Origin: Nepenthes gracilis
Lineage: Eukaryota > Streptophyta > Magnoliopsida > Caryophyllales > Nepenthaceae
Assembly (NCBI GenBank): GCA_033239525.1
Contig: BSYO01000023.1
Location: 12,602,158 to 12,666,157 of the forward strand
Direction of reading: 5' to 3'
DNA: 64,000 nucleotides
Below are positions 20,790 through 60,819 of the stretch, in pieces; within the stretch, counting starts at the first letter, position 1; each line of letters opens with the position of its first letter. Under the pieces are notes generated by a model. It was given only the letters and a program-made list of their open reading frames with translations. It had not been told where the DNA came from and searched no databases. Made by a program: the position numbers and the translations under genes.

Positions 20790-20804
20790 TTTGCAGCGGA
20801 AATT

Positions 20805-35323: not shown

Positions 35324-35336
35324 AACTTCCCCTCAC
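35324..35336 (-). other. Polypurine tract
   Basis: Minus strand GTGAGGGGAAGTT directly abuts the 3' LTR and is the expected plus-strand DNA primer site. Confidence 0.7.
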
Positions 35337-36974: not shown

Positions 36975-36998
36975 CCCACCGACGGTTCACGAACCAGT

Positions 36999-37011
36999 CT
37001 CTGATACCAAT
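36999..37011 (-). other. Primer binding site
   Basis: Reads ATTGGTATCAGAG on the minus strand just inside the 5' LTR, matching the 3' end of initiator methionine tRNA as used by Ty1/copia elements. Confidence 0.85.
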
Positions 37012-37784
37012 TGTTGGGACCCAAATGGGCGCTCGGACAGAATGCTCAGGTGACCGGGCGGACAAAGTACTCGGAGACGGAGAGATTCACTGGACGGCGT
37101 CAACAAGGAAGAAGAAACACACCGGTGAAACCCTTCAGGAAAGAGGGAAAAACCACGGGAGTAGAGGCAACAACAAATCCACTATGTGAAATAGGTTACA
37201 ACCAACCTCCAAGAGGGAGTATCCGCTACACACCCAAGAAGATAAAAGAAGAAAACAGGCGAGAAAAGCACACTTGGTGATTTTTCTCTTTCTCCCGACC
37301 GGTGGTGACTCCTCTTTGTCTTTCACAAAGTCCTTTTGCCTTTACATGCACTCACACTTGCTTTCACAAGCTCTCAAGCTCTCAAGCTTCTCACACTCAC
37401 ACTCTCACTTCTCAATCTCACGCACCAGCCTATATATAATCGGGGAGGGCCAGTGGGTTACGGGTAGGTTACTACACCCCTTAGGCCTGCCATGGCCGTC
37501 CCGCACGCCTCTGCGTGTCGGAATGGCGAGCCTGCCACCTTGGAAGTTGAAGCCGCCCGGATGTCCAATCGGAGTGGGTTTGCATCCACTCCACGCTTGT
37601 GCAGCGAGCCTACGTGAGAGAGAAAGTCGACGAGGCTCCAGCGTCCTGTTGTCCACCTCTCGGACATGATACCTTTGAGTACGTCCAATTCATTCGCCTC
37701 GAGGACACACGTCCTCGTCCATGTCAACCTCTCGGACATGAACCTCCGGACATTTGTGTCCTTTGGTCCCCGACAAGAGAGTGA
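37012..37784 (-). repeat. 5' LTR of the copia-type element
   Basis: Shares its TGTTGGGACCC inner tip with the 3' LTR, but differs in many short indels. The outer tip stops at 'gagagtga', eight bases short of the 'ccccaaca' seen in the partner. Confidence 0.85.
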
Positions 37785-37834
37785 GGGAAGCAGCGGAATG
37801 CGGAGGGCTTTCGCATGATGTTAAAGATCGCCAT

Positions 37835-39059
37835 CACAGATTTGAGAGGGACGATGATCGTTAAATTTGGTGAAGGTGGGAGGAATTCTTGAATATGTTT
37901 GAAGAACAACGGTATGTTTGGGCGGCGCTCCCAACTACTGGTTGATCATTGAAACAATAAATAAAATGCAATTTTTATCGCTTTTTTTCTCAACCAAAAA
38001 AAAAAAACGATGAACAAAGGCATTCGAAATAGCTTCATATTTTATATGAATTAAAATATTTATTTTCGTAATTTCAATTATATATTTTAAAATAAATCAT
38101 TACAATATAACTATTATAGAAAATTTACAAATAACTAAAATTAATTATTTTTAAATAATAAAATTATAATTATTTATTATATTAAAGTAAAAAATATTTT
38201 TGTATTTTTTTAAAAAATAAACCCTACTCAATACAGAAATAATGCATATAGAGAAGCTCTTGAAATGCCTTCTATGGATTGACAAAAATATAGGGACCCT
38301 GTCTCACTTAAAAAAATATATATATAGAATTCTATTTATTAAGAAGATTATTATATTAAAATTTAATAGTAAAGATTTAAAAATAAAAAAAATCTTACAT
38401 ATTGTTAATTTTTATAATATTAATATCTACTTAATATTAAATTTAATATTTTGAAGATTTTGATAAAATAATAATTTAAATATAGTATTTATTATTTAAA
38501 TTTTAACAGATTTTTTTTTTTTTAAATTCAGCAGCTCAAATTTTAAAAAAAATTACTTCTTTGTATTAACAATCTTTAGATCTTAAATTGTCAATTATAT
38601 TCATATTTTTAAAAAATTAAAAAAATAAAAATAGTAGTCTTATTTTTTAAAATTTTTGTAATAATAGTATTTTATTATTTTATTATTTATTTAAAAATTA
38701 GATATTATTTTATATTTTTAAATAAATTAAATAAGAATCATTAAATTATATTAAATTAAAAAAAAAAATTATGTATACATAGGAGGGGCTTGTACACGAC
38801 TTTAGGGAGTCCCTCAATTTACATAGAGTTGGGCTAATGACCATAAATAGCAACCCTCGTTTATATATTTTTAATATGATATTTTAATTTTTTTTGATTA
38901 TATACTCAATCTTAATACTTTAAATTAATTTTTTTGATTAAAATATTTTAATATTTTAAGTTTAACCCAAGAGAAATTAATTTTTTTTAAAAAAAAATTA
39001 TGAATATAACATTTCAATAATTTTGAGTTTGGGGAGGAAAAAAAATTATGAATATAACC
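37835..39059. repeat. PANB leader and upstream block, copy 2
   Basis: Continues from the pseudogene start through leader and AT-rich upstream DNA, with the conserved islands at about 38247-38305 and 38773-38865. It runs into a deletion near 39040-39060 that removed the end of the block and the start of the adjoining LTR. Confidence 0.75.
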
Positions 39060-42000
39060 TTAGAAGATGTGACTTGAATAGTTGGACATTAAATAATCCT
39101 AATGCCTTAATAGGTTATCTTAGACGACGTTTGTGTTGATTTAGAAATTTGAGGTCAGGCGGTCCTCCCATTAAATTAAGCCAACCGTTATACATGCAAG
39201 TAACGTCCATAACCAAAGAAGAGATACTATATCAACGCATTGATTTAGAAGCTGTCCATTCAAATGACACCTCTCATTATAAATAAAACCTCTACCCCAA
39301 AGAATAGAGGGAACAGAGGACGACAAAAAAAGAGAAAGCAACAACAATGCCTGAAAAACTGCTACAGAAGTCAAACACTCTACCAAACGAGTATAAGACA
39401 ACTAAAGACACTCTACTAGTCGAGTGTACAACTACTAAAAGTCACTCCACCATACGAGTACAAAATAAAGAAGTATTGCACTCCATACAAACATTCTTCC
39501 TCATTATCTCTACATTCTCGCACTTATTTTCTTGTATTTTTTTATCCGAGTAAAAATATTTCTGACTTGAATGTCGAAAGATATATTGGGGAGTAAATCG
39601 TGTATACCTCTTACCTCTTATTTGTTTTATTATGATGCGTAAAATCTAAATTCTGAGTTATGAAGATAAGATTCGATTCTATTCGAACGCCCATGTATGA
39701 CAAAGTAGCTCTCTAATTCGTACAATAATACGGTTCCTAGAGATGCATTATTAGCGCCATTTGTGAAAAAATAATAGTCAAGCTACCTAACTGAGAATAA
39801 AGGATGTAGCAAACACCAAGACTCAGACAAGCGTACCACCTAAAGACATTATTTTACGTGGCAATTTCTGACAGAGGGTAATCATATAAATGCTTATCTG
39901 GCCACAAACGTCAATGTGGAGACACCGGCGGCCCAAGTTAACATAATGTCCAATGTCCTTTAGACAATTTGTAATAGATTGGAAGGACACCCATTGAGGC
40001 TCCATCCTCCAACTTCTAAACTTCTACATCTAATAGGAAGAATTGAAGGAAAAAGTAATCAACTAAAGTGGTTATTCTGCGGCCTAAAGAACTCGAGACC
40101 CAAGAGGTGATGAGCGACATGGCCTAGACTTGGCTAGAAGACTAACTACGTCTTGAAGCACGGAATGAAAGCTCAGAGCATTGGAATCTACACTATTCTC
40201 GAGATGTTGAGAAGCCTTCAGCTTGGGAAGAAGTCTCATGTAGCATCCTGCCAATAAGAGCTCATAGCCAGCAGATCCCGCATGTCTCCTTGAACCACTC
40301 GAAGTTGAGGACCTTTTTTAATATTAAGAGGACTGCATCCTCCTCCTAGGTGGAGGAGGAAATCATAAAGATTGAGCAGCGACTGTTCCAAGGAAATATG
40401 GATAAACACTTGGTCGACCTAGATAGGTTACCATTCAAGAGGAAAATCCAGATGCAGTAATTCTCTCTAAGGTTCAAAATGCTAACCTGAAGCCCTACAA
40501 TAAAAATTTTGATCCTATAGATTATTTGGATCACTTTCATACCCTATTGAGATTGTAGGGCCTAGACGATTCAGCCTTATGCCTCTACTTTCCACTAACT
40601 CTCAAAAGAGATGCACAAATTTAATATTATCAGTTACAACCAAATTTGATCCAAACATTTCAGAAACTGGCTGATAACTTTCTATTGTAGTTTGCATTCA
40701 ATCGAAAGGAAGAAAAACAGCCCTGGCACCTTATCTGTATCTGATAAAGGCCAAACGAGAGTCTAAAACTCTTCCTGACTTGGTTTAACGATGAGGCCCA
40801 AAGAATATTGAAGCTAATTGACAATGTGAAGCTGAAATCCTTCTGGCGACCCGTACAGTTGAATGAATTCTTCAAATACATGGTTCAACAAGAGCCCATA
40901 ACCTTTCTTGAGGCAAAAACCATCACTTGGGTATACATTGCCACCAAAGAGACCAATGAGACAAAGAGGCCAGAGCACACAGATTATCATTTAGGATCAA
41001 CAAGCGGGAAAAGGAAGAACGAAGATAACTTCATCACTTAAGATCTTATGAAGCAATTGAGGATAGAACCGAGTGTCTGAAGAGAGTACAAGCCCTTGAA
41101 CCAAACTCCTTTAAATACACTCAGATGAACATTCTAACGTAGATTTGTAACGAGAAGTTTCTGAAGTAACCTAAGTAGTTCAAGAATCCAAAACTAGGGG
41201 ATTAGTCCAAGTACTATTTTTACCATCAATCCTTGGGTCATATTATCGAGGACTGTTAGATTCTGTAGAAAAAGATCAAGACCCTTATCCAGAAGGGGTA
41301 TATCAACAAATTCTTAATAGACTCGGGGCAAGCTTCCAGGAGTGCGAATAGCGATGAGTTGGTGCAACAAGAGTAGCCGCGTAATCGAGTTGCAACCGGA
41401 GTGGTAAACATGGTGTCTACAAGATCATACTGAAATAAAACTCCATACCACTCAAAAAAGACTTCCAGTAGTAAAAAGTAGAGGATAAGAGTAAGGAATG
41501 AAATCATTAATTAATAACGATGATATGACTCATATAATAACCTTTCATTCTGACCTTATTGTATCTGCACTTATTTCAAATGATGCCTTTGACTACCCAT
41601 TAAAATGAATCTTCGTTGATAATGAAAATTCAAAAAATTTGTTGTGCATTGATATTTACTTTAAGCTCAGATTGAAAAAAGACTAGATAAAACCGATCGA
41701 GACCCTTAAATGGGTTAGACAATAAACTTATGCCAGTTTTGGAAACCATTCAATTGGAACTCACACTAGGAACGTACCCAAAGATTGCTCATATTCCTAA
41801 TCATTGACCTCCCTTTGGTCTATAATGCATTATGAAACTACTCTAATTAGTTGCATTCAAAGTAGTTATATCGATCCCACACTTGAAGATGTAATTTATG
41901 ACAGCATGTGGAGTTGAAGAAGTCCTAGGTGACCAAGTCATCGACCAAATGTGCTATTTATCTCAAGTCAATCAGGTGATTTCAAATCAGCTGGTTGAGG

Positions 42001-43640
42001 AATTCGACCTTTGAGGCAAAACAACTCTACAGTAAGGTCAATCCAGTGAGTCAACCGATAAAATCCTGCTAGATCACAACGAGCCTAAGAAATGCGTACA
42101 GATCGAAGCTCTCACCAAGTCAACCACAGGAACCGATGACTTTTCGTTGATAAAATTCAGGTATGTTTACATAGACACCCGTGGACATACCAAAAATTTC
42201 GACCGAGGTGGAGTTTCACAAGCTAGGCCTTGATCCTGTGTATCAACCGGTGAGGTAGAAATGGATGAGCCACTTTATCGAGAAACTGATTGTCATGAGT
42301 GAGGAAATCAGAAAGACTCTCAACGCAAGATTCATAAGGAAAGTTTAATACCTGAATTGGTTGTCAAATGCGGTGCTCATCAAGAAAAGTAATAGAACAT
42401 AGTTGATGTATGTCAATTTTAGCGATGTGAACAAAGTATATCCAAAAGACGGATTTCCATTACAAAGAATCGATTTGTTGATATACTCGACATCTGAGCA
42501 CAAGTTGTTAAGTTTCATGAATACTTATTTAGGTTATATCTAGATTCGGATAAGTGAAGAGCTCACCTCCTTCATGACCGACTAGAAATATACTATTACA
42601 AAGTCATATCCTTCTGAAATTTTTAGATTTATCGTGTCTTAACAGGAGATTGAAGTGAACCCCAAGAAGATAAAAGTTATCATGGATATAAATTCGCCTT
42701 GCACCACGAGAGAAATCTAGAGGTTAATCGGGAGACTCGCAATACTCTCCCAATTCTTGGCAAAATTTGTGGAGAAATATATTTCCTTCTTCAAAATCCT
42801 AAAAGGAATTAAGGTAAACGGATTTCAATAGATAAAAAGACTGCCAAGCAGCCTTTCAAGAATCGAAGAAATATCTAGCCAACCCTCCTCTCTTATCTTC
42901 TCCAAAAGAATGTGAGGAATTACACCTCTATCTGGCGATATCCAACACAGTACTAAGCTCAATCTTGATCAGGCAAGAGTTGAGATACAGCGAATGGTTT
43001 ACTACAATAACAAAATTCTAACAGATACCGAGACTCGATACTCACAAACTGAAAGGATCACTTTAACACCAATCCATTCTGCCAGAAAGATATGATCATA
43101 CTTTCAAACTCATAAGATTATTGTTCTAACTAGCCAACCACTAGAAGAAATCTTGTAGAAACCCAAAGCGTCCAAATGATTGAACAAATGGACAAACCAA
43201 TTAGGCAAGTTTGACATAAAATTCTGATAGTAACCAACTATAAAAAGTTAAACCGTCGCGGATTTTATAATTGAAACGATAACACTAATTTCATATGACA
43301 TTAAGAAGCACAAAGACACCCGTCACTAAGAAGAGACTCCAACCAAGATTTTACACATGGATGGTCAATCTTGGAATGAAGTAGGCATGGTCTTAAGAAT
43401 TTCGAATGAGTCAAAGATGTAATACTCGATGACATTTAGATTTTTAGCCACCAATAATGTCACTGAGCAAGAGGCATTATTAGCCTAACTCAGAATAACG
43501 AAGGAATGCTTAACCAGAAATCTAATCATCCATAGTAACTCAAAACAGATTGTCAATCAGGTCTTCAAAAATTTTAAAGCATCTAACTCATTACTTCCAA
43601 AGTATATTGTTAGAGTAAAGGGTCTGACTGAGTTATTCAA
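39060..43640 (+). mobile_element. Tat-like Ty3/gypsy remnant 1
   Basis: A 5'-truncated LTR (39060 to about 39750, TATA box in 'ctcattataaataaaacc' near 39276) is followed by the 'gcgccatttgtg' leader of this group. Next is gag from about 39807 ('gtagcaaacaccaag', start codon lost). Then come gag core (40490-41170), protease-like (about 41590-41800), partial reverse transcriptase (42150-42870, core deleted) and RNase H (43020-43240). Integrase and the 3' LTR are missing: the element stops at a fusion to PANB exon 1 near 43640. Stops are frequent. Confidence 0.75.
40490..41170 (+). pseudogene. Tat-like gag remnant in element 1
   Basis: Across frames I read FPLTL/STNSQKR-type and LQPN-type strings typical of retrotransposon gag, then an open stretch 40808-41041 containing VKLKSFWRPVQLNEFFKYMV and RPEHTDYHLGSTSGKRKNED. 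The same order appears in elements 2 and 3. Stops and shifts show decay. Confidence 0.6.
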
Positions 43641-43708
43641 TTTGAGAGGCCAAGAAGGGAGGAACAGTGAAATGCAGAGGGCTTTTGCATGATGTTAAAG
43701 ATCCCCAT
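43641..43708 (-). pseudogene. PANB exon 1 fragment fused to element 1
   Basis: From an ATG at 43708 the minus strand reads MGIFNIMQKPSAFHC, clearly the PANB N-terminus. It then leaves PANB and enters Tat-like sequence somewhere between about 43665 and 43635. 'gaggccaagaagggagg' there also resembles PANB 'gaggccgagaagggag', so the exact breakpoint is blurred. Confidence 0.85.
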
Positions 43709-44999
43709 CAGAGATTTGAGAGGGACGATGCTTGTAAAATTTGGTGAGGGTGCAAGGAATTCTTGAATTTATCTGAAGAACAACGATGTGTTTGGGCAGC
43801 GCCCCCAGTTCTTGGTTGATGGTTGAAAAAATAAAAAAATAAAAAAAGTAATTTTTTGGGATTTGTATCAATTTTTTTCTCAAAAAAAAAAAAACCCTAC
43901 GATGAACAAAGGGATTCGAAATAGCTTCAAATTTTACATAAATTAAAATATTAATTTTCACAATTTTAATTATATTTACAAATAATTAAAATTAATTTTT
44001 TTAATGATTGAATTATAATTATTTATTATATTAAGATAAAAAATAATTTAAGAAATAAAACCCCCCTCAACACACCAAATAAAGCATATAGAGAAGCTCT
44101 TGAAATGCCTTCTATAGATTGACAAAAATTTGAGGATCCTATCTCACTTTTAAAAAAATTGAATTCTATTTATTTAAGAAGATTATTATATTAAAATTTA
44201 ATAGTAAAGATTTAAAAATAAAAAAAAATGTTATATATTTTTATATTTTTAATTTTTTATAATATTAATATCTACTTAATATCAATTTTAATATTTCAAA
44301 ATTTTAATAAAATAATTATTTGAATATATTATTTATTATTAAAATTTTAAAAGTTAAATTTTTTATTTAACAACTCAGATTAAAAAAAAATAAAGTTTTA
44401 CTTATCTAAATTAACGGTCTATAGATCTTAAATTGTCAATTATATTTATATTTTTTAAAAATTAAAAAAATGAAAATAGTAGTCTTATTTTTGAAATTTT
44501 TTATAATATTAGTATTTTAATATTTTATTATTTATTGAAAAATTAGATATTACTTTATATTGTTTAAATAAATTAAATAAGAATCACTAAATTATATTAA
44601 ATTAAAAAAATTATGTATACATAGGAGGGGCTTCTACACAACTTTAGGGAGTCCCTCAATTTATATAGAGTTGGGCTAATAACCACAAATAGCACCCTAG
44701 TTTATGTATTTTTAATCTGATCTTTTAATTTTATTGATTATATACTCAATCTTAGTACTCTTTTAATTCTAAATATTTTAAGTTTAACCAAAGAAAAATT
44801 AAAATTTTTTTAAAAAAATTAAGAATATAGCATTTGAATAATTTCGAGTTTGGGGAGGAAAAATCTCCATAGCAACATCTTCACTATTGAATAAAAAATT
44901 AAATAAATAATCTTTAAATTAACAAAAATGATAGGAGTGATTATCTTTTAAATTTTTTAAAAAAAATATATAGTATTTAAATGCTCGGTAGATACAAAT
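43709..44999. repeat. PANB leader and upstream block, copy 3
   Basis: Leader at 43709-43830 and AT-rich DNA with conserved islands near 44090-44150 and 44611-44706. It ends CAAAT at 44995-44999, directly against the LTR of element 2. Confidence 0.8.
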
Positions 45000-45802
45000 T
45001 GATGGGTACAACCATAATCAGGCATGCCCAATACATCAAAGGGTAAGAGGCCCAAATGACGACGGACTAACAGAATACACTACCAAACCAATCAGGAGAA
45101 CAATACAACACTTGAATCAGGGGATGCATCCTGAAAGTTGGGCATTAAACAATCATAATAGCTTAATGAGCTATCTCAGACGATGGCTATGCCGACCTAA
45201 AAACTAGATGTCGGGCGGTCTTCCTATTAAATTGAAGCAGCCATTATACATGTAAGTAATATCTTTTATAACTGAAGATGTACCATATCCATGTATTGAT
45301 TTAGAGGCCTGCCAACTAAATGGCACTTATTATTATAAATAAAACATCTCCCCCAAAGAATAGATGGAATTAAGGACAACGAAAAAAGGGAAAGCAACAA
45401 TAACACTTGAAAAACGGCTGCAAAAAACAGACACTCTACGACATGAGTGTAAAACAACTAAAGATACTCCATCGGTCGAGTGCGCAACTACTAAAAGTCA
45501 CTCCACCTAACGAGTACAAAATAAAGAAGCGCTGCATTCTAAACAAATACTCTTTCCCATCCTCTCTACATTATTGCATTCATTTCCTTGCATATTCTCA
45601 TCTAAATAAAAAGATTTATGATTTGAATATCGAAGGATTATCGGATGGTGAGTCTCATATACCTCTTACCTATTATTTATCTTGTTATGATGTGTATAAT
45701 CCAAATTCTGAATTACGAAGATTAGATCTGAGTTTATTTGGATGCCCATGCATGACAAAATGACTCCATAATTCGTATAATAATTCAAATCCTAGAAATG
45801 CA
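45000..45802 (+). repeat. LTR of Tat-like element 2
   Basis: 803 bp, TG to CA. It begins at the same base after CAAAT as the LTRs at 47789 and 56912. Confidence 0.8.
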
Positions 45803-47020
45803 TTTTTAGCGCTATCTGTGGGAAGGATAAAAGTCAAGCCACCTAACTGAGAATAAAGGATATGGCAAACACTAAGATCCAAACAAGCGTACCACCCAAG
45901 GAAATAATTTCACGTGGCGATTACTCGATGGAGGGCAGTCATGGAGATGCTCGTCTAGCCACAAACGTATATGTGGAGATGCTGATAGCACTAGTGGATA
46001 TAATGTCCAAGGTCCTTTAGACAACTCACAATAGATTGTAAAGATACCCATTGGGGCTTCATCCTCCAACTCTCAGACTTTTGCATTTAAGAGGAGGAAT
46101 CAAAGAAAAAATAGTAAACTAAAGAGGTGACTCCGTGGCTTGAAGACCTCAAGGCTCAAGAGGTCACAAGCGATAGGGCCTAGACCTAGTTAGAAGGCTA
46201 ACTATGTCTTGGAGTATGGGATGAAAGCTCAGAGTGGTAGAATTTGCGCTATTCTTGAGATGTTGAGAAGCCTTCAGCCCGAGAAGAAATCTCATGCAGC
46301 ACCCTGCCGAGAAGAGCTCATGCTCGATAGATCCAGCATGTCTCCCCGAACCATATGCCTCTACTTCCCATTGACTCTCAAAAGAGATGCTCAAACTTAA
46401 TATTACCGGTTACAACCAAATTTGATTTGAACATTTCAGGCTCTAGATAATAACTTTCTATCATAATTTACATCTAGTCGAAAGAAAGAAAAGCAATATT
46501 GGCACCTTGTTCACATCCAACAAGGGCCAAACGAGAATCTAAAATCCTTCCTAGCTCAGTTTAATAATGAGGCCCAGAGAATATCAAAGCTAACCGGTGA
46601 GGTGAAGTTGAATTCTTTCATGGTGATTACCATGAAATTGGATCGAAGTAGTTGTGCAATCGGATTGTAAATGCTCAAACGGGATCGCCATAAAAACTAG
46701 GGGTAAGCCTATGAGATTGCAAATAACGACAAGTTGGAGGTAACAAGAGTAGTCGTGCAATCGGATTGTCGCTGGAGTGGTAAACATGATGTCAACCGAA
46801 CCACACAGCAATAAAACTTCAAACTACCTGAAAAAGACTTTTAATACAAGAAGTAGATGATAGGAGTACGAAATGATATCATTAGCTTTAGTAACAATGA
46901 TATGACTTATATAATAACTTTTCATTTTAGCCCTCTTATTGTATCCGCGCTCATTTTAGATGGTACTTTTGACTACCAATTAAAATGAGTTTTTATTGAT
47001 AATAGACGTTTAAATATATT
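45000..47020 (+). mobile_element. Tat-like Ty3/gypsy remnant 2
   Basis: Complete 5' LTR 45000-45802 (TGATGGGTACAACC to AAATGCA; TATA box 'attattataaataaaaca' near 45335), then 'agcgctatctgtggg' and gag start ATGGCAAACACTAAG at 45860. Gag pieces run to about 46640. An internal deletion joins these to a short protease-region piece that ends near 47020 in AT-rich DNA. Unlike the other copies, its 3' side is not joined to a PANB exon fragment. Confidence 0.75.
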
Positions 47021-47029
47021 CTGAAAATT

Positions 47030-47788
47030 ATAATATTAAATTCTTAAAATTTTTTAAATTTCTGACCCACTACTTGATATTAAATATTATTTAATATATT
47101 TAAATAAAATATTTATTTAAATATATTATTTATTATTTAAAATTTAACAATCAAATTATTTTAATTCAACAACTCTGATTAAAAAAAATAAGATTTTACT
47201 TCTTTATATTAACAATCTTTAGATCTCAAATTGTCAATTATCTTCATATTTTTAAAAAATTAAAAATAATAAAAGTAGTAGTCTTATTTTTGAATTTTTT
47301 TATAATATTAGTATTTTAATATTTTATCATTTATTTAAAAATTTAGATATTATTTCGTATTTTTTAAATAAATTAAATAAGATTCATTAAATTATATTAA
47401 ATTTAAAAATTATGTATACATAGGAGGGGCTTCTACACAACTTTAGGGAGTCCCTCAATTTATATAGAGTTGGACTAATGACCATAAATAGCACCCTCGT
47501 TTCTGTATTTTTAATATGATATTTTAATTTTATTGATTATATACTCAATCTTAATACTTTTTTAATTCTAAATATTTTAAGTTTAACCAAAGAAAAATTA
47601 ATTTTTTAAAAAAATTAAGAATATAGCATTTGAATAATTTCGAGTTTGGGGAGGAAAAAACCTCCTTAGCAACATCTTCATTATTAAATAAAAAATTTAA
47701 TAAACAATCTTTAAATTAAAAAAAATGATCAGAGTGATTATCTTTTAAATTTTTTTTTAAATATATTGAATGTTCAATAAATACAAAT
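47030..47788. repeat. PANB upstream block, partial copy 4
   Basis: Starts within the AT-rich part, lacks exon 1 and leader, and keeps the 'ggaggggcttctacacaac' island at 47413-47505. It ends CAAAT against element 3 at 47789. Confidence 0.75.
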
Positions 47789-48586
47789 TGATGGTTACGA
47801 CCAACATTAGGCCAGCCCAATACACAGAAGGGTAAAAGGTCCAAATAATAACAACCCAACAGAATGCGCCACCGAGCCCATCAAACAAGCGATGCAACAC
47901 TTGAACCAGGGGATGCGATCTGAATAGTCAAATATTAAATAATCACAATAGCTTACTTAATGAATTATCCCAGGCAACGGCTCTGCCGATCTAGAAAATG
48001 GATGCCAGGCGGTTCTCACATTAAATTGCAACGACTGTTATATATGCAATAACATCCCTCAATATTAAAGATGCACCATACCCGCAAATTGATTTAGGGG
48101 TATGTCAATCAAACGATATATCTAATTATAAATAAAACCTCTCCCCTCAAGAATAGGGGGAACAAATGATGAGGAAAAAAAGAGAAAGCAACAACAACAC
48201 CTGAAAAACGGCTACAAAAATTAGACATTCCACCAGACGAGTATAAAACAATTAAAGATATTCCACCAGTTGAGTGCACAATAACTAAAAGTCACTCCAC
48301 TAGACGAGTACAAAATAAAGGAGCACTACACTCTGTACAAGTACTCTTCTCTATCCTCTCTAGATTCTCGCACTCATTTTCTTACATTTTCTCATTCGAG
48401 TAAAAAGATTTCTGACATGTAATGAGTAGTGAGTCTTATATATTTTTTACCTCTTATTTGTCATGTTGTGATGCATAGGATCTAAATTATGAGTTATGAA
48501 CAGCGAACACAATTCTATTTGAATGCCTATGTGTGACAAAGCGGCTCCCTAATTCATATAATAATTCGGGTCTCAAAGATATATCA
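47789..48586 (+). repeat. LTR of Tat-like element 3
   Basis: Begins TGATGGTTACGACC; ends near 'gatatatca' before 'ttgtcaccgcctgtgag'. A TATA-like 'ctaattataaataaaacc' lies near 48122. Confidence 0.75.
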
Positions 48587-51069
48587 TTGTCACCGCCTGT
48601 GAGAAAAACAATAATCAGGCCACCTAACCGAGAATAAGGATATGGAAAACACCAAGATCCAGGCAAGCATACCATCTAAGGTTGTCATTTCACGTGGCGA
48701 TTATCTGACGAAGGGCAGTCATGGAAATGCTTGTCCAGTCTCAAATGTAAATGCAGTGATGCTGGTAGCTCAGGTACACATAATGTCCAAGGTCCTTCGG
48801 ACAATTTGTAACAGATTGGAGGGACACCCAACTCCCAAGCTTCTGCATCTAAGAGGAGAAATCGGAGGGAAAAGCAGTCAACCAAATAGGTAACTCCGCA
48901 GCATGCAAACCTAGAGGCTCGAGAGGTTACAAGCGACAAGGCCTAGACTCCGCTAGAAGGCTGACTACGTGTTGGAGCACAGGATAAAAGCTTAGAACGA
49001 TGGAATCCACACTATTTCCGAGATGTTAAGAAGCCTTTAGCCTGAGAAGAAGTCTCATACAATACCTTGCCGAGAAGAGCTCATGGCCAATAGATACAGC
49101 ATGTCTTCCCAAATAACTCAGAGTTGAGAATCTTCCTCAATGTTAAGAGGGTTGCATCTACCTCCCAGATGGAGAAGAGAATCAGAAAGATTGAGTAGTG
49201 GCTTTTCCAAGGAAGCATGGACATACACTCGGTGTACTAGACAAGTCACCATTTATGAGGGAAATCTAGATGTAACAACTCCCTCTAAAATTCAAAATGC
49301 TGACCCTGGAGCCCTACGACGGAAGTTCTAATCCCATCGATTATCTGGATCACTTCCGTACCCTACTGAGATTCTAGAGCCTAGACGATTCAACCATATA
49401 CCTCTACTTCCCATTGCCTCTCAAAGGAGATACTCACATTTGGTTTTACCGGCTACAACCAAATTCGATCCAAACATTTCAAGAGCTGACTGATAACTTT
49501 TTATCATAGTTTTTATCCAGTCAAAAGGAAGAACAACAGCCTTGACGCCTTGTCTGCATCCAATAAGGGCCAAATGAGAGTCTAGAGTTCTTCCTGACCC
49601 GGGTTAACAATGAGGCCTGAAAGATATCGAAGCTAACTGGCAAGGTGAAGTTGAATTCTTTCATGGCGATCACACAGTCGGTGAATTTGTCAAACACTTG
49701 GCTCAATGAGAGTCCAGGACTTTTCTTGAGGTGGAGACTATCAGTTAGGCATATATCATCAACAAAGATGCTAACGAGGCCAGAGCACACAAGTCTTCAT
49801 TTAGGATCAATGAGTGGGAAAATGAGGAATGGAGACAATTCCACCACTTGAGATACCATGAAGCAATTGAGGATGGAACCGAGTATCTGAAAGAAATATA
49901 AGCCCTTAAACCTAACTCCTTTGAATGACACTCAGACAAATGTTCGAATGCAGATCTGGAACGAGAGGTTTCTGAAGTAGCCTAAGCTGTTCAAGAACTT
50001 GAAAGAAGGGGACCAGTGCAAGTATTATTTCTACTATGGATTTTAGGGTCATAATATCAAGGATTACCGGACTCTAAAAAAAAGATCATGACCCTTATCC
50101 AGAAAGGGTATATCAACAAATTCTTGAGAGAATTGGGGCAAGCCTATGGGAGTACAAATAATGACGAGTTGGGGTAATAAGAGTAGCAACACATTCGAAT
50201 TGCGGTCAGAGTGATAAATATAATATCAACCAAAATACACAGAAATAAAGCTCCAGGGCACCCAAAAAAGACTTCTAGTAGCAAGAAGTAGAAGATAGGA
50301 GTAATGAACGATAACTTTAGTTTTAGTAACGATGATATTACTCATATAATACTTTCCATTCCCACCCTTTTGTATCTGTACTCATTTCATGCGGTACTCT
50401 TGACTACCAATTGAAATAAATCTTTATTGATAATAAAAATTTGAGAAATTTAATGTACATTAATACCTACTTTAAGCTCAAATTGAAAAAAGACTAGATG
50501 AGACCGACTGAGAGACCCTTATACGGATTAGACAATAAATTCATGCATGTTCAGGAAACCATTTAATTGGATGTCACACTAGGAATGTATCGAAAAATAG
50601 CGTTCTAAATGCTCATGTTCCTAGTCATCAATCTTCTTCCGGTCTACAACGTTGTTCTGGGACGACCCTAGTTAGTTGCATTTAAAATAGGGATATCGAT
50701 CCCACGCTTGAAGATAAAATTTATGACAGTACGTAGAGTCAGAGAAATCCTAGGTGACCAAGTCACTAATTGAACGTGTTATTTATTTAAAATCAATCAA
50801 GCGATTCTAAATCAGCCGATTGAGAAATTTAATCTTTAAGATGAAGTAACTCCATAGTAAGGTCAGTTCGTTGAGCTAACCAACCGAATTCCAATAGATC
50901 CAAACAAGCCCTAGAAATATGTATAGATCAAAAGCTATTTACCGAGTCAACTGCGTGAATAGTCAATGACTGTTTTTGATAAAACTCAAATGTGTTTGCA
51001 TGGACACCCGTGAATATGATGAAAATTTTGTCCAATGTGATGATTTATAGGTTGGGTCTTAATCCCGGA

Positions 51070-53255
51070 GAGAGGGAAGGGCTGATGTGGGGCTTCCATC
51101 ACTGCCGTCGCTAGAGGAGCCGACATCGGGAATAGAAGTTGGTGAAGCGCTCTCCATGACATTACCTTCCATTTTATGCATCGATGTGAGTAGAGGAAGG
51201 AATCGCGAACCGAAATAGAACAACCGCCACCGTCGCCGCCTTCACTAGAGGAAATAGACAAGTAAATCCTTCCCTTCTCCTTGTGGATGCCGATTTTGGG
51301 GTTGCATATGTCAATTTTGAAAAAAATTGGTCCAATCGTGGAAAAATGAATTGAGGTGCGGTAAAGAGAGAGAAAACGCTGTCGTTGGCTTGCATGCGTC
51401 GTCATTGCCATCGCCGGGCTGCTGTTGCCGTTGCCCATGTTGGAGCTGTCCTCTACAAAAGAGAAACATGAAGGGCGACAGAGGAGCAACGCGGCAGGGA
51501 AAGAGAAGGGCACGCGTGAAGCAGAGAGAGAATCGTGCAATTCGGGTACCTTGGAGTATCCTTTTAGTAAATATACTTGGAATAAAGTCGAAACAAGTGT
51601 CTATAATCTGTTTTCTTGGTTTGATTTAATATCTGATATATTTTAAATACTATTTAAAATTTTTACTAATATGCATGTATTTTTATACACCCAATCAGTT
51701 TATTCTGGACATGTATGTATGGCTCATTGGCTGATTTGGGAATTTTTGGTACGGGCTTTATGATTTTAAAGGATTTAATATTTTTCTAACAGCCTAAATA
51801 ATTTATCAGACATTATATATATTTATATTAGTATGTGTATATAAAAATGTGTATGCAATTTATATAAGCCGTGCATTTCAACATACAAGTGCCAGATTGT
51901 GGTCACTATATTTTGATTTATTATTAGATATTCTAGTCAACTCTCGATGAAAAAATATTTATTATTGAAAATCCCTTCCTACTGGTAGGAAAAGTTTGGA
52001 GTAGTGATACTTTCCATTTTGATGATTTGATTCATCCTCATAATATATTCAAACGTCTTAATATATCTGATAAACTTGATGATTACACCCAAAATCGTGG
52101 GTGATAAAATATAGTGAGCAACCTTATCCATGGGAGACAGAGTATATAGGTGGCTAAGCATACTGGCTTAATTCACATTTGATATGGTCTATGGTTACCA
52201 AGAATATGTGTAACCCTTTCTCAAATTAGTCTTTAAATAATCAAAACTCAAATTTAATATATGATTTGTATTTCTACATAGATTTATATTAAATTTTGGT
52301 TTGAACTTGGATTTTAGATTTGGATTTAAGATTTTTCAATTTTGCCCACAGATGGGTCTTGATATGTCTCATACAAATAATTTTAATTATGTGCTTTGAT
52401 CCAAATCTTTGAGCTATTTATTGTGATACTATTTTAATTTCTACACACGCTATTGGATCATCCAACTATCGAATTCTATCTCAAATCACAAGATGATTGG
52501 GTCTTGAATTTGGACTCAGATTTGGACTCGGACTCAGATTTGGATTTGGATTGGATATCGGTTTACTGAAATCGGTGCGAATCACTTCTGGTTGTACATA
52601 TACACATCCCGATGAGGATTATTTTCTGATTTGGACATTTATTTTGGATTTAAATATTTAATTTGAGTACGAAACTATTATTGAATTTTATATATTGAAT
52701 TTTTATTATATTTATTATATCGACGATTTAGACTTAGTTAGTTATTTGATTGGATATTTATCTATTCGACCCTCCCTCTAATTTATTGGACTTGTTTTAT
52801 TTAAATATGATATTTATTTGGTTTTATACTCTTATTTTATATTTTGTCCCTTTAGAGTAGAAGATTCAAATGTATCATAGGAGTAATGATGTGATCTGTC
52901 AACTATTCATCCGATTTAGTGAATTTTAATTTAGTTATCATTTAAATTGGCATTTGATATGATTGAATTTTGAATCTGGCTGGATATAGACCCATAGTTA
53001 TATTTCGAGAATAATTGAGACATTATATTATATCTAATTATGATTTTGGTTGAATTATTACCTCCTTAAGATGATTATGGAGTAGGTCGTGTTTAGATTG
53101 TCCAAACGGTTGTCCGATAAGGTCCAATGGAGGTTTTGATTTATCGGATTCTGTATATTTGGTTTATCACACCCAAATTTTTTGGGACTTGGCAGTATTT
53201 ATTAAAATTATTTAGAATTTTAAATTTTAAAAATTATAATTAATTATTTCATTGA
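51070..53255 (-). mobile_element. LTR-like block nested in element 3
   Basis: It interrupts Tat-like pol sequence and aligns along much of its length with the insertion at 20805-23266 (for example around 51180-51330 and 51840-52160). Near 53180 the minus strand has 'aatttgggtgtgataaacc', typical near the start of long chromovirus LTRs. Borders are approximate, because pol sequence of element 1 is also missing on one side. No domains are seen. Confidence 0.5.
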
Positions 53256-53580
53256 CCTATTTGATCCGAATTCGTGACATATACTGTTATAAAGTCATAC
53301 ATTTTGGTTTAAAAAATATGAAAGTAACATGCCAGAGGCTGGTAAACAAAATATTTGAGGCACAAATCAAAAGAAATATAGATGTATATGTTAATGGCAT
53401 GGTCATCAAAAGTATAGTAGCCGACTATCATATTTATAACCTAGGTAAAACTTTTGAGGCAGTTCGAGTAAACCAGATGAAGTTAAATATAACAAAGTGT
53501 GTGTTCGAAATAACTTTTAGAAAGATCTTTGAGTTTGTCGTGTCTCAATGGGGGATTGAAGCGAACTCGAGAAAATAAAA
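53255..53580 (+). pseudogene. Reverse transcriptase fragment, Ty3/gypsy Tat-like
   Basis: The open frame contains YCYKVIHFGLKNMKVTCQRL, then VYVNGMVIKS where Ty3/gypsy elements have the YVDD catalytic motif, and KLNITKCVFEITFRKIFEF with VVSQWGIEAN. The order and spacing fit the RT palm and thumb of Tat-type elements. The catalytic Asp pair is lost (Asn-Gly), so this copy could not polymerise DNA. Confidence 0.85.
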
Positions 53581-53882
53581 GTTTTTGTGGACATAAATTC
53601 ATCTTGCATCGTGAGAAAAGTCCAAAGGCTAATCGGGAGACTCACAACACTCTCCCAATTCTTGATAAAATCATAGAAAAATATTTTTCCTTTTTCAAGA
53701 CCCGGAGAGGAATTAAGGCAAACATATTCCAATGGACAGAGGACTACCAAGCATCCTTTCAAGAATTAAATAAATATCTCACCGACACAACGCTAAGATC
53801 GGTCCAAAGTGGGCAATAGTTTGAGGTACAATAACTGGTTTACTACGTAAGCAAAATTCTAACATACACCAAGACTCGATAC

Positions 53883-54068
53883 TTGCAAGTTGAAAGGATA
53901 GCTCTAGCACTAATCTACTCCGCCAGAAAGTTGCGATCATACTTCCAAACCTATAAGATTATCGTCCTAACTAACCAACCACTTAAGAGAATCCTACAGA
54001 AATCCAAAGTGTCAAAACAATTAATCAAATGGAAAATCGAATTGAGCGACTTTGACATAAAATTCTAA
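53883..54068 (+). pseudogene. RNase H fragment, Ty3/gypsy Tat-like
   Basis: The frame reads ERIALALIYSARKLRSYFQT, then IIVLTNQPLKRILQKSKVSK and KWKIELSDFDIKF, the connection/RNase H region that follows RT in Ty3/gypsy elements. Element 1 has the same region at 43040-43240 with more stops, and element 4 at 57930-58040. Confidence 0.8.
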
Positions 54069-54480
54069 CTGCAGCTGACCACAAACGGTCAAGCTCTCTA
54101 AGATTTCATAGTCAAAACGATGACATCGATTTCAGATGACATTAAGAAGCACGAAGACACACGTCACTAAGAAGAGGCTTCGATCGGGGTATCACATGTG
54201 GACAAATCATCATCCTAATCTTAGAATGGAGTAGGCATGGTCTTGATAATTTCGAATGGGTCAAATATAAAATATTCAATGACACTCGAATTTTTGGCCA
54301 CCAACAATATCGTTGATTACAAGATCTTATTGGTCAGATTCAGAATAATAAAGGAATGCTCAGCCAGTGGCCAAGTTGTCCATAACGACTTGAAACTGAT
54401 TGACAACAAGGTCACCAAATTTTGAAACATCTAGCCCATTACTCACAAAATATCTTGCTAGAGTGAAAGCTCTGACCAGA

Positions 54481-54556
54481 TCATTCGATTTGAGAGGTTG
54501 AGAAGGGAGGAACAATGGAATGCAGAGGGCTTTCGCATAATGTTAAAGATCGCTAT
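54481..54556 (-). pseudogene. PANB exon 1 fragment fused to element 3
   Basis: The sequence matches the first ~45 bp of PANB coding DNA, but the start codon has become ATA (54556-54554). Tat-like sequence joins at the same point as at 43641. Confidence 0.85.
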
Positions 54557-54829
54557 CATAGAATTTAGTGGGATGATAATCGTCAAATTTGGTAAAGGTG
54601 GGAGGAATTCTTGAATTTGTTTGAAGAACAATGGTGCGTTTCTGCGACGCCATCAGATCGTGATTGGTGGTTGAAATAATAAATAAAATATAACTTTCTG
54701 CAATTTGTATCGTTTTTTTTCTAAAAGAAACTCTACTGTGAAAAAAATGGATTCAAATAGCTTCACATTTTATATAAATTCAAATACTTATTTTCATAAT
54801 TTTAATTATATATTTTAAAATAAATCATT
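54557..54829. repeat. PANB leader and upstream block, copy 5, left arm
   Basis: Leader followed by AT-rich upstream DNA, broken at 54830 by the solo LTR. Confidence 0.8.
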
Positions 54830-54834
54830 ATTAA

Positions 54835-55872
54835 TGAGAACAGCCGAAAAGCGGTCAGCCTATGGACTAAGCCCACGGATGGAGGAAGGGCACAAAGGAT
54901 AGTGACCTACAGCATGGCCTCACAAAAGGTCGGGATCAAGCAGCGGAGCGGTCAATCCAGGCAGGTCGACCAGAGACCGTTCGGTAGGAAACTGGCGATA
55001 CGAGTTGCCCCATGAGAACCCCTCCAGCTCACTAGTCGGTCGGCAACACAGTGCAGTGCAGCGCAGCGCAAACACGCTAGAAAAACTTACCATAGTCATC
55101 CAAAATATCTCAGGGGATATCTCCTAAATATTGCTCAAGATCACGTATCTCCCCAGGATAACAATTACAACTCGAAGAATATCCTATCCAAGCTCGCGTG
55201 CCACCCCGAATGGCAATTATGATTTAACAAATCATTCCATAAAGGCGGTGATCATGCGGCGATCCCTAGGATCACCTCAGTGAACGAAAGAATTCTAGCC
55301 GGCAACAGTGATTGCCTTGACAAGCGCCCATTATCACCGAGACAGCTCAACATATCGACATGGGCAACTATCGCTAACCGTAGAACCCAAAGAAAGCTAA
55401 ACTTCCCCCATCAACTATAAATACCCCTTCGCCCCATAGGCTAACGGGATGCCATCACGAACTAGAAAAAGCAAGCGCGATTGAGAAAAAAGCAACCCTA
55501 TGTGCTCAAGCACACCTCTAACTCTATGCTGCTCCCTGTTGAATGCACCTTTATCTCTAAGTTGTTCCATGTCGAACGCATCCTGTAAAGCCTAGTCTCC
55601 GAACCACACTCAATTTCCGCACCCATGCAACATCCATATATATCTCTCACATCCTTACATCTTTCTATCAATTTGAGAAAGATTTTTGACTTAAGCGTCA
55701 GATGTTATATTATGAAGTAAGTCCTATCAATCCTCTGATACTTTGTTTGTTGGTTGTGGTATGAGAACCCAGGTTTGCAGTAACGGAGACTAGATCCACT
55801 TTAATTTGATCCACCGTGAAAGATCAAGTGACTTCCTAATCCGTACAATAATTCGAATCTAAGGACGCATCA
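54835..55872 (+). mobile_element. Solo LTR (1038 bp) in PANB upstream block
   Basis: Begins TGAGAACAGCC and ends GACGCATCA, with a TATA box 'aactataaatacccc' at about 55411. Alignment with the other upstream blocks shows it is an insertion. Flanks are ATTAA (54830-54834) and ATTAT (55873-55877), one mismatch. The last ~150 bp match Tat-like LTR ends. Confidence 0.8.
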
Positions 55873-55877
55873 ATTAT

Positions 55878-56911
55878 AATCTAACTATATTATAGAAAAA
55901 TTACAAATAACTAAGACTAATAATTTTTAAAGAATTAAAGTATAATTATTTATTATATTAAGATAAAAAAATATTTTTTTGTCTTTTCAAAAAATAAAAT
56001 CCTTCTCAATACAGATTTAAAGCATATAGAGAAGCCCTTGAAATGCCATCTATGGATTGACAAAAATTTGGGGATCCTATCTCACTTTTTTAAAAAATAG
56101 AATTCTATTTATTTAAGAAAATTTAATAGAAAAGATTTAAAATAAGAAAATATTATATAATGATATATTTTAAATTTTTTTATAATATTAATATGTACTT
56201 AATTTTAAATTTAATATTTTAAAAATTTTAATAAAGTAATTATTTAAATATATTATTTATTATTAAAATTTTAATAACTAAATTTTTTTCAATTCTACAA
56301 CTCAGATTAAAAAAATAATATTTCACTTCTTTCTATTAACAATCTTTAGATCTTAAATTGTCAATTATATTCATATTTTTAAAAAATTGAAAAATAATAG
56401 TAGTCTTATTTTTGAAATTTTTTATAATATTAGTATTTTAATATTTTATCATTTGTTAAAAAATTTAGTTGTTATTATATATTTTTAAAATAAATTAAAT
56501 AAGATTCATCAAATTATATTAAATTAAAAAATTATGTATACATAGGAGGGGCTTCTACACAACTTTAAGGAGTCACTCAATTTATAGAGAGTTGGGCTAA
56601 TGACCATAAATAGCACCCTCGTTTATGTATTTTTAATATGATATTTTAATTTTATTGATTATATACTCAATATTTTTTAATTCTAAATAATTTAAGTTTA
56701 ACCAAAGAAAAACTAGATTTTTTTAAAAAAAAAAATTAAGAATATAGCATTTTAATAATTTCGAAGTTGGGGAGAAAAAATCACGTTAGAAATATCTTTA
56801 TTATTTAATAAAAAATTTAATAAATAATCTTTAAATTTAAAAAATTGATAGTAGAGATTATCCTTTAAATTTGTATTAAAAAAATATATTGAATGTTCAA
56901 CGGATACAAAT
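55878..56911. repeat. PANB upstream block, copy 5, right arm
   Basis: Continues the block interrupted at 54830, with islands near 56026-56090 and 56535-56630. It ends CAAAT (56907-56911) against element 4. Confidence 0.8.
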
Positions 56912-58460
56912 TGATGGTTACGGCCATCATTGGGCCTGCCCGTCACACAGAAGGGTAAGAGATTCAAATGATAACGACCCAATAGAAAATATTATTGAGC
57001 CCATCAGGCGAATAATACAATGTTTGAATTAGGATATATGATCTGAACTGTCGGATATTAAATAATCATAACGGCTTACTTAATGTATTATCTTAGGCGA
57101 CGGCAATGCCGATCTAAAAACTGGATACTAGGCGATTCTCATATTAAATTAAGGCAATTGTTATATATCCAAATAACATCCCTCACCACTGAAAATACAC
57201 CATATACACGTATTGATTTAGGAGCTCACCAATAAATTGACACCTTTTATTATGAATAAAACCTCTCATCCAAAGAATAGAAGAAACAAAAGATGACAAA
57301 AAAAGAGAAAGCGACAACAATGCTTGAAAAACGGCTACAAAAATTAGACACTCCATTAAACGAGTATAAAACAATTAAAGACACTTCACCAGTTAGGCGT
57401 GCAACTACTAAAAGTCACTTCACCAGACAAGTATAAAATAAAATGCACTCCATACAAATACTTTTTTTCATCCTCTCTACATTCTTACACTTATTTCCTT
57501 ACATTTTCTTAATCGAGTGAAAAGATTTCTGATTTAAACGTCGGTGGATATATCAGGCAGTAAGTTTTTTATACCTTTTATCTCTTATTTGTTTTATTAT
57601 GATACATAGGATCTAAATTGAGTTACAAAAATTGAACCCGATTCAATTCAAATGCTCGTGCATGATAAGGTGGCTCCTTAATTTATACAATAATTTGAAT
57701 CTCAAAGATGCATCATTATCATCTTCTGTGGAAGGACAATAGTCCAACCACCTAACCGAGAATAAATGATATGGCAAACACCAAGATTCAGACAAGCGTA
57801 CCACATAAGGATGTCATTTCACTTAGCGATTACCCGAAAAAGGTTAGACACGAAAATACTCATCCGGCCACAAATGCAAATGTGGATATGCTGGCGGGTC
57901 AAGTAAACACAATGTCCAAGGCCATAAGATTATCGTTCTAACTAACCAACCACTAAAGTGAATCATATAGAAACCCAAAATGTCTAAACGATTGATCAAA
58001 TGGACGATCAAATTGGGCAAGTTTGATATAGAATTCCAATCATGACCCACCATAAAAGGTTAAACTCTCGCAGATTTCACAGTCGAAACGGCGATACCGA
58101 TTTCGGACGACAATAAGAAGCATGAAGACACCTATCACCAAGAAGAAGCTCCGATCTGGATCTTACATGTGGACGGGTCATTATCCCAATCTTGGAATGG
58201 AGTAAGCATGGTCTTGAGAACTATAAATGGGTCAAATAAAAAATTATCAACGACACTCAAATTTTCAACCACCAATAAGTCGCTGAGTCTGAGGTCTTAT
58301 TGGCTAGACTCAGAATAACCAAAAATACTAAACCAGAAACCCAGCCGCCTACAACAACTCAAAACAGATTGTGAATTAGGTTACCAAAAATTTTGAAGCA
58401 TATAGCCCATTACTCGCAAATTATCTCGCTAGAATGAAAGCTCTGACTGGGCCATTCGAT
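56912..58460 (+). mobile_element. Tat-like Ty3/gypsy remnant 4, mostly deleted
   Basis: LTR 56912-57715 (TGATGGTTACGG to GATGCATCA), leader, and gag start ATGGCAAACACCAAG near 57771. Near 57923 the sequence jumps from gag ('atgtccaaggcc') straight to RNase H ('ataagattatcgttctaac'), a deletion of most of gag-pol. It ends at the PANB junction near 58460. Confidence 0.75.
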
Positions 58461-58528
58461 TTGAGAGGCCAAAAAGGGAGGAATAGCGGGAATGCCAAGG
58501 GCTTTCGCATGATGTTAAAGGTCGCTGT
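58461..58528 (-). pseudogene. PANB exon 1 fragment fused to element 4
   Basis: Matches the first ~45 bp of PANB coding sequence with one extra base. The start codon is now ACA (58528-58526). Same Tat-PANB junction as the other two copies. Confidence 0.85.
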
Positions 58529-60819
58529 CACAGATTTGAGAGGGACAATAATCGTAAAACTTGGTGAAGGTGGGAGGAATTCTTGAATTTGTTTGAAGAA
58601 CAGCCGTGTGTTTGGGCGGCGCCACCAGCTCTTGGTTGATGGTTGAAATAATAAATAAAATGCAAGTTTTTTACAATTTTTATCGTCCTTTTTCTTAAAA
58701 AAAAAAAAAAAAAAGGACCTACTATGAACAAAGGGATTCGAAATAGATTTCTATTTTATATAAATTAAAATATTTATTTTGGTAATTTTAATTATATATT
58801 TTAAAATAAATCATTACAATATAACTATATTATAGAAAATTTATAAATAATTAAAATTATTTATTTTTAAATAATTAAGTTATAATTATTTATTATATTA
58901 AGATAAAAAATAATTTTTTTAACTTTTTAAGAACTAAAATCCTCCTCAATGCAGGAAATAAAGCATATAAAGAAGCTCTTGAAATGCCTTCTATGGATTG
59001 ACAAAAAAATTGGGCATCCTATCTCACTTGAAAAAACAAAAATAGAATTCTATTTATTGAAGAAGATTATTATATTAAAATTTAACAGCAAAGTTTTAAA
59101 AATAAAAGATATTACATATTGTTATATTTTTAATTTTTTATAATATTAATATCTACTTAATATTAAATTTAATATTTTAAAAATTTTAATAAAAGTATTA
59201 TTTAAATATATTATTTATTATTTAAATTTTTTAACAGTTAAAGTTTTTTAATCCAACAACTAAAATAAAAAAATAAGATTTTATTTCTCTGTATTAACAA
59301 TATTTAGATCTTAAATTGGCTATTATATTTATTTGTTTAAAAAAATATAATAAAATTAGTAGTCTTATTTTTTAAATTTATTATAATATTATTTTAATAT
59401 TTTATTATTTATTTAAAAATTTGATATTATTTTATATTTTTAAATAAATCAAATAAGAATCATTAAATTTGTTGCGTCCTGAGAATCTGGCCGTACGTCA
59501 GTCAAGGCACGAGCGGCCTTTTAGGCGTGCGGACGTATAGAAACGGGCAACACAAAGTAAACTGAACTCGAACAGAGAAAGAGAAGTATGGGGACAGTGG
59601 GAGAACATGTTGGTTTACGTGGAAAACCCCTTAATCTGATGGGGGTGAAAAATCACGGCAGCGGACAGGCGGTCCGAGAAATTTCACTATTGTGGTGAAA
59701 AGATACAATGAATATCAGGTCGTTTCGCTTGGCTTTAGGGTATTACAAACAGGAAAATGCATTTCTCTCATCACTCTTTTCTCTTTGCCTTAGTTTTTCT
59801 CTTGAAGATTCTTGCTTAAGCGTAAACAGATAGATTCAGAATTAGGACCCTCCCTTAGTAGCTAAAATGGGGTATTTATAAGGAGTGTGATGCCGTAAGG
59901 AGGCGACATGTGGCACCGGCGTGTCGTACGCCTCGCCAACATCGCCACTCATCAGAAGGGCGGGACAGTGGGGACACAGCATCGTAGATACGGTGACTTG
60001 GGCGCATGGCCTGCGCGCGTCGGCCAAGGTCGTGCCGTTGGTTGCTCGTGGGCAAGATATGCCGCATAAGTTATATCCGGTGGCACCTTGCCATTTTGGC
60101 TTTTCAGGCGGTCCTCGTCCTACAATGGATCAAAGCATCCTCTCGGATGGCCAGTGTCTTTGTCGCTTAACTTGATTTTTCAGGCGCTCGGAAATGGGTT
60201 GGTCACTTGGGCCTGATTTGTCTCGTGGGCCTTTTGGGCTAGCTTTCTCCTACGATCATTTGGGCCTGTGATTGCAATTTTGGGCCTTGGATTTCATGAC
60301 CCATCAAAATTATATTAAATTTAAAAAAAAAATATTATGTATGCACCGGAGGGGCTTCTACACACCTTTAGGAATTCCCTCAATTTATATAAAGTTGGGC
60401 TAATAACCATAAATAGCAGCTGGTTTGTATATTTTTAATATGATATTTTAATTTTATTTATTATATACTCATTCTTAATACTTTTTAATTCAAAATATTT
60501 TAATTTAACCAAAGAGAATTTTTTTTTTTTGAAAAATTAAGAATAAAGCATTTGAATAATTTCGATTTTGGGGAGGAAAAATCTCCGCAGAAACATCTTC
60601 ATTATTGAATAAAAAAATGTAATAAATAATATTTAAATTAAGAAAAAAATGATCTCAATGATTATCTTTTAAATTTTTTTACATAAATATTAGTATTTAA
60701 ATGTTCAATTGATACAAATATTGTATAAAATTTTATTAAAAAAATATTGTATGTAATTTTTTATAATTTAAAATATTCTCGATTGAATTTTAATTTTACA
60801 ATGAACATAAAAATATACT
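58529..60819. repeat. PANB leader and upstream block, copy 6
   Basis: Leader and AT-rich block with islands near 58968-59030 and 60336-60420, split by the solo LTR at 59470-60306. The Tat insertion site (CAAAT, 60715-60719) is empty and the sequence continues as in copy 1 ('ttataatttaaaat' near 60760). It ends at the next solo LTR. Confidence 0.8.
59470..60306 (-). mobile_element. Solo copia-type LTR (837 bp), perfect AAATT duplication
   Basis: On the minus strand it begins TGATGGGTCATGAAATCC and ends CAGGACGCAACA. The flanks AAATT (59465-59469) and AAATT (60307-60311) are identical. The plus-strand 'cgtggaaaacccc...gaaaaatcacgg' near 59620-59660 is the reverse-strand form of a copia LTR hairpin. 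A TATA box 'ccttataaatacccc' lies on the minus strand near 59875. Confidence 0.85.

Follow-up and report, generated by a model that had tools for sequence, protein, structure and literature searches.

Tandem PANB promoter fragments and truncated Tat-like retrotransposons form a chimeric array in Nepenthes gracilis

The window analyzed here, a 64,000-nucleotide stretch of Nepenthes gracilis DNA, holds two copies of PANB, the ketopantoate hydroxymethyltransferase gene of vitamin B5 synthesis. Both are on the minus strand. Copy 1 (8223 to 13897, about 8.2 to 13.9 kb; start codon at complement 13895 to 13897) is apparently intact, with an unbroken reading frame. The protein obtained by joining its tblastn exons is 100% identical over 358 amino acids to Nepgr_023565 of N. 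gracilis, the best of 616 proteins at an E value of 1e-100 or better (8000 candidates scored). Its 5' end served as the reference for what we call a P block, which runs from the first ∼23 codons of exon 1 through the leader into upstream DNA. The upstream part, put at ∼1.2 kb in the first-pass annotation, measures about 1.3 kb. In copy 1, the P block (13828 to 15211, minus strand) extends to ATACAAAT, behind which the Tat site is unoccupied.

Copy 2, whose gene body was identified by self-BLASTN and tblastn at 20501 to 34525 (minus strand), is a pseudogene: its exon 1 is frameshifted and has lost a net 15 bp. Across 738 alignable stop-free bases, frameshifted parts excluded, the two copies differ by a dN of 0.029 and a dS of 0.086; the last exon alone gives a dN of 0.069 and a dS of 0.056, that is, no constraint. 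Copy 2 also has, between its exon-1 and exon-2 regions, a 149-bp stretch in two direct copies, 98% identical and two bases apart (32487 to 32786). Exon 1 is interrupted by a 3.26-kb LTR element (34526 to 37784, minus strand) with LTRs at 34526 to ∼35315 and 37012 to 37784, an initiator-Met-type primer-binding site (PBS; minus strand, 37009), and flanks GGGAG and GGGAA. In these LTRs, long identical runs alternate with indel-rich clumps, for which a poor Nanopore consensus and mosaic evolution are possible explanations. Base 37785, at which the first-pass annotation started its array, is the first base past this element, and the P block that begins there (37785 to 39042, minus strand) is the native 5' end of copy 2, displaced by the insertion. 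Because the element cuts copy 2's own start off its gene, the 37.8-kb block is a source or flank of the array and not, as had been proposed, an extra copy in it.

Self-comparison of the window, suggested in the first-pass annotation and run as self-BLASTN, bore out the recurrence of the PANB exon 1 start, leader, and upstream DNA at 43.6, 54.5, and 58.5 kb, with a partial block at 47 kb. The copy 1 block (query, 13836 to 15163) matched the 5' end of copy 2 at 37791 to 39042 (84.5% identity) and a block at 43647 to 44915 (82.5%). It also matched the 54.5-kb block in two pieces (54500 to 54830 at 81.9% and 55873 to 56832 at 83.6%), the 58.5-kb block likewise (58466 to 59469 at 86.6% and 60307 to 60774 at 78.6%), and the 47.1-kb half block in its distal half only (47070 to 47712 at 87.2%). 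All matches have one orientation, with E values of 0.0 for those over 600 bases and ≤1e-90 for the two shorter pieces. The blocks, all on the minus strand, are P_A (43639 to 44999), P_D (47070 to 47788, distal half only), P_B (54487 to 56911), and the last, P_C (58458 to 60774), which, like copy 1, runs past the unoccupied Tat site. P_B and P_C were each split by a later solo-LTR-like insertion, of 1.04 kb in P_B (54832 to 55872, flanking repeat ATTAT) and at 59470 to 60306 in P_C. The P_B insertion has an end weakly similar to the Tat LTR ends of the array; the one in P_C starts with TG, ends with CATCA, is flanked by the repeat AAATT, and has no relatives within the window at an E value of 1e-3. 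An inverted pair of similar sequences (1963 to 3347 and 60819 to 62056; three pieces, 66 to 78% identical) flanks the PANB cluster on both sides, its right member starting directly right of the last P block.

Between the P blocks lie four truncated Tat-like elements on the plus strand, in keeping with the alternation described in the first-pass annotation. Their general plan is an ∼0.8-kb LTR starting with TG, a PBS-like site (three of four copies), gag, and RNase H. T1 (39060 to 43638) has an LTR without its first part, a PBS-like site at 39752, RNase H, and a weak second RNase H. T2 (45000 to 47069) has an LTR (45000 to ∼45804), a PBS-like site at 45807, and gag, and is internally deleted and 3' truncated. 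T3 (47789 to 54486) has an LTR from 47789, a PBS-like site at 48588, gag, and RNase H, and is split by ∼2.2 kb of other DNA (∼51066 to 53239). A part of this and adjoining DNA (51798 to 53246) is 68% similar to 21818 to 23240, a sequence that interrupts copy 2. In T4 (56912 to 58457), the LTR (56912 to ∼57715) is followed by an ∼3.2-kb deletion, relative to T1, that joins the gag region to the second-RNase-H region.

Domain assignments come from Pfam scans of three plus frames (37.8 to 43.8 and 44.9 to 58.5 kb), three minus frames (37.8 to 43.8 kb), and one plus frame beyond 58.4 kb. On the plus strand, Retrotrans_gag was matched in T2 and T3 and RT_RNaseH in T1 and T3. RVT_3 followed RT_RNaseH in T1 only, at an E value of 0.00089 and 19.6 bits, under the curated Pfam cutoff of 21.6. 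T4 had no domain match, which, as for the unmatched frames of the other copies, is a miss and not proof of absence. We take sequences near 42.4 and 53.2 kb to be reverse transcriptase fragments by motif only, Pfam giving no match to the domain. No integrase was matched in the plus frames scanned from 37.8 to 58.5 kb, self-BLASTN found no LTR beyond the second RNase H region, and Rfam gave no match in the whole window at gathering scores. A motif that we take to be an Arg-type PBS, thus a non-Met tRNA site adjoining the 5' LTR, occurs at one alignment position in three of the four units, with 3, 4, and 5 mismatches of 18 at 45807, 48588, and 39752, and was not found in T4; two more sites with 5 mismatches lie on the minus strand, so a match at that level carries little weight by itself. 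Because a protein search with the RNase H region of T1, its stops written as X, gave no relatives at an E value of 1e-10 among 134 candidates, the continuation of the element past the joint with exon 1, and hence any microhomology at that joint, cannot be read.

Together, the pieces are arranged head to tail as P(copy 2)-T1-P_A-T2-P_D (half)-T3-P_B-T4-P_C, and both kinds of joint recur. The P/LTR joint, ATACAAAT followed directly by TGATGG, is base-identical at 44999, 47788, and 56911, in all three testable units; copy 2's own was lost in a deletion of about 200 bp. The unoccupied Tat site survives twice, in copy 1 (15211) and in P_C (60719), where the sequence is unbroken. The opposite joint, at which P_A, for example, is fused to T1, connects the second-RNase-H region to exon 1; it aligns at about 43639, 54487, and 58458, again in three of three testable units, and corresponds to about copy 1 position 13830, with the exact base uncertain by a few positions. 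The LTR insertion in copy 2 exon 1 lies ∼20 bp from this joint and is a separate event. Breakpoints on each side are thus shared by all testable units, head to tail, as in a tandem duplication. Since the joints recur in this way, each was most simply formed once. Sequence outside the 5' LTR is not carried by ordinary retrotransposition, which therefore cannot have moved P. Thus, the locus carries a genuine, locus-specific, chimeric tandem array, and the earlier description of a PANB promoter and first codons multiplied together with a retrotransposon stands.

The sequence divergence of the units was compared for P and T separately. P blocks, copies 1 and 2 included, differ pairwise at 0.088 to 0.150 of aligned sites when trimmed (0.098 to 0.158 with untrimmed ends), and T pieces differ at 0.221 to 0.268 (trimmed). 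Transversions alone are of one order of size, at 0.045 to 0.082 in P and 0.052 to 0.062 in T. T is richer in transitions and has more C/G sites than the AT-rich P; private C-to-T type changes in the T LTRs amount to 0.12 per C/G site, and raised C-to-T type change is typical of methylated repeats. Transversions are not one clock, because between copies 1 and 2 they number 0.067 per site in P and 0.036 in the gene body, at total distances of 0.108 and 0.104 to 0.107. On whether a whole unit has a single age, the similar transversion distances of P and T stand against a twofold difference between P and the gene body at one age. The AT-rich P thus changes faster, and by a gene-body clock T may be older than P. 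The transversion comparison being a rough clock, the case for one insertion rests on the joints.

Trees of the units are near star-like, with terminal branches far longer than internal ones. The six-block P tree groups P_D with P_B (88%) and P_A with these two (90%); the T tree groups T3 with T4 (98%). These best-supported groupings are compatible. In a unit quartet, D/T3 was placed with B/T4 at 65% for P alone, 100% for T alone, and 99% for both concatenated, an agreement between P and T that is one of three possible outcomes and alone only modest evidence. The P data come from half a block in D, and two of the four T copies are heavily deleted. When units are read with T on the left and P on the right, the commonest site pattern in P (6 of 8) conflicts with that in T (38 of 81); with P on the left the two agree, the P pattern being 3 of only 5 sites and the T pattern 38 of 81. 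Placements of copy 2 inside and outside the occupied group of the P tree are equally good (AU, 0.74 and 0.75), and copy 2 is not placed with the array; neither it nor P_C stands out as the closer one to the array. Because terminal branches far exceed internal ones, the ordering of duplications from block divergence proposed in the first-pass annotation yielded no order; the AU test left five of seven tried trees unrejected.

Purifying selection on the array leaders, expected if their promoters mattered, was looked for and not seen: the first 180 alignment columns, in which the leaders differ from copy 1 by 0.15 to 0.19, are no less divergent than the rest of the block (0.12 to 0.15). Copies 1 and 2 differ by 0.083 in these columns. 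The start codon is kept in P_A and lost in P_B and P_C (two of three). Of the leader CpG cells, 8 of 21 were lost in the array and none of the 14 belonging to copies 1 and 2 (Fisher P = 0.012), a test on 7 sites with few, nonindependent cells and the consensus taken as the ancestor. The copy 1 leader shows no methylation-type decay, with 0 of its 7 CpGs lost. C-to-T type changes in the leaders are also more frequent in the array (27 of 252 versus 8 of 158 in copies 1 and 2; P = 0.048); single array leaders range from 0.060 per C/G site in P_C, which is unremarkable, to 0.155 in P_B, compared with 0.048 and 0.054 in copies 1 and 2. Because the leaders are not conserved and two of three start codons are gone, the array is probably decaying recombination debris and no new working system.

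We favor a history of one Tat-like insertion and one illegitimate joint to an unoccupied PANB block, followed by unequal exchange, and give it a probability of about 75%. A Tat-like Ty3/gypsy retrotransposon would have entered ∼1.3 kb upstream of a PANB gene in an ancestor of N. gracilis, with its 5' LTR towards the gene. Then, an illegitimate joint inside the second-RNase-H region would have connected the element with exon 1 of a PANB block without the insertion, giving P-T-P; that block may have been allelic, or one more tandem PANB copy that has lost its body. Unequal exchange within these repeats could have extended this to P(copy 2)-T1-P-T2-P-T3-P-T4-P, roughly at the time of the PANB duplication, and later deletions and LTR insertions would have broken the units up. 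The make-up of the array, its recurrent joints and unoccupied sites, and its decay are direct observations; the recombination route and its timing we infer. The first-pass annotation had likewise proposed repeated unequal recombination beside the second PANB copy: the tandem unit, the recurrent joints, and the compatible P and T groupings agree with this, and an exchange specifically between P blocks and an order of events did not emerge.

Other origins fit less well. Capture of the PANB 5' end by a Tat element, with the chimera then spread by retrotransposition, gains some plausibility from the position of the PANB piece, antisense behind the second RNase H region, since Retand elements are described as having, between pol and the 3' LTR, long regions that contain antisense open reading frames (PMC11963269). 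Yet P lies outside the 5' LTR at the insertion joint, the unoccupied site survives twice, neither integrase (plus frames, 37.8 to 58.5 kb) nor an LTR after the second RNase H was matched, and the copies within the 64-kb window are all head to tail at one locus. We rejected this very unlikely route on the P/LTR and T/exon-1 joints. That T copies differ by 22 to 27% of sites, more than P, would suit independent Tat insertions into several preexisting PANB 5' fragments, but an identical insertion base and the same 3' joint, each in three of three testable units, contradict them, and this exceedingly improbable alternative was rejected as well. A third candidate is a misassembly, in which homoeologous or allelic copies of a decaploid were mis-strung: according to a paper on a closely related species (PMC12244726), the published N. 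gracilis assembly combines Nanopore reads with Hi-C scaffolding, and N. mirabilis is decaploid with five subgenomes, as N. gracilis was reported to be. Moreover, the two LTRs of the element in copy 2 exon 1 show clustered differences with many indels, as a poor consensus would. However, units are 9 to 15% apart in P and 22 to 27% in T and carry private deletions and insertions, so a mis-join would have to produce one novel joint three times, and we consider an artefact unlikely.

A working array is a further alternative. By orientation, the P promoters would read leftward into antisense Tat and the Tat LTRs rightward into antisense PANB, an arrangement suited to convergent transcription at each joint. 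Read-through from the LTRs into antisense exon 1 and leader could then feed small RNAs that tune PANB, and exact 21-mers of the copy 1 block do recur in the array (246 of 1364) versus none of 5287 from the gene body. Any moderately young duplicate shares such 21-mers, however, and copy 2's own block has 142 in common with that of copy 1; further, the array leaders are not conserved and the copy 1 leader keeps its CpGs. A regulatory array is thus highly improbable. Equally improbable is its fullest form, in which the joints would be points of convergent transcription and the array, made by tandem duplication alone, would itself generate double-stranded RNA directed at the leader and promoter of PANB, as a retrotransposon-made trans-regulator of vitamin B5 synthesis. 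Small RNAs from the array that match copy 1, as the first-pass annotation suggested, are possible judging from the shared sequence. Returning to the insertion, illegitimate joint, and unequal exchange favored above, its product is most likely nonfunctional and, we infer, silenced.

A search of titles and abstract openings found no published description of this locus. The array points to no new mechanism; it shows how one retrotransposon insertion in a promoter can end up in a tandem repeat at its locus, where the joints and unoccupied sites can still be read. Annotation calls for care here: with the promoter copies, PANB "first exons" would be overcounted, and reads in expression or small-RNA studies would multi-map. 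The T elements resemble the Tat clade, in particular the Ogre/Retand branch, in an Arg-type PBS-like site and, in T1, in a weak second RNase H match behind the RNase H, with the integrase side cut off; the extra RNase H is stated to be unique to the Tat lineage and, when placed between RH and INT, to be characteristic of Ogre and Retand (PMC6317226). Unlike the elements described there, three of the four copies here stop within the second-RNase-H region and T2 stops before it, and integrase and a 3' LTR were not found. As head-to-tail gypsy-type copies at one locus, they also resemble plant tandem LTR-retrotransposon structures, which share internal LTRs and are flanked as a whole by target-site duplications (PMC11899658); its authors weigh recombination among the causes and favor a single insertion. 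Unlike in those structures, the units here combine a truncated element with the promoter of a gene, and the repeats are not bounded by the LTR. A PANB block lies between each internal region and the next LTR, and no element end was found past the last P block, so the array lacks the layout of shared LTRs within flanking target-site duplications. In tandem segmental duplications with transposon-borne breakpoints, known in maize, an illegitimate joint is followed by unequal exchange that multiplies gene pieces. The array at PANB is like these in both respects and differs from them in that the repeated piece is only a promoter and the first ∼23 codons, with an LTR element locked in.
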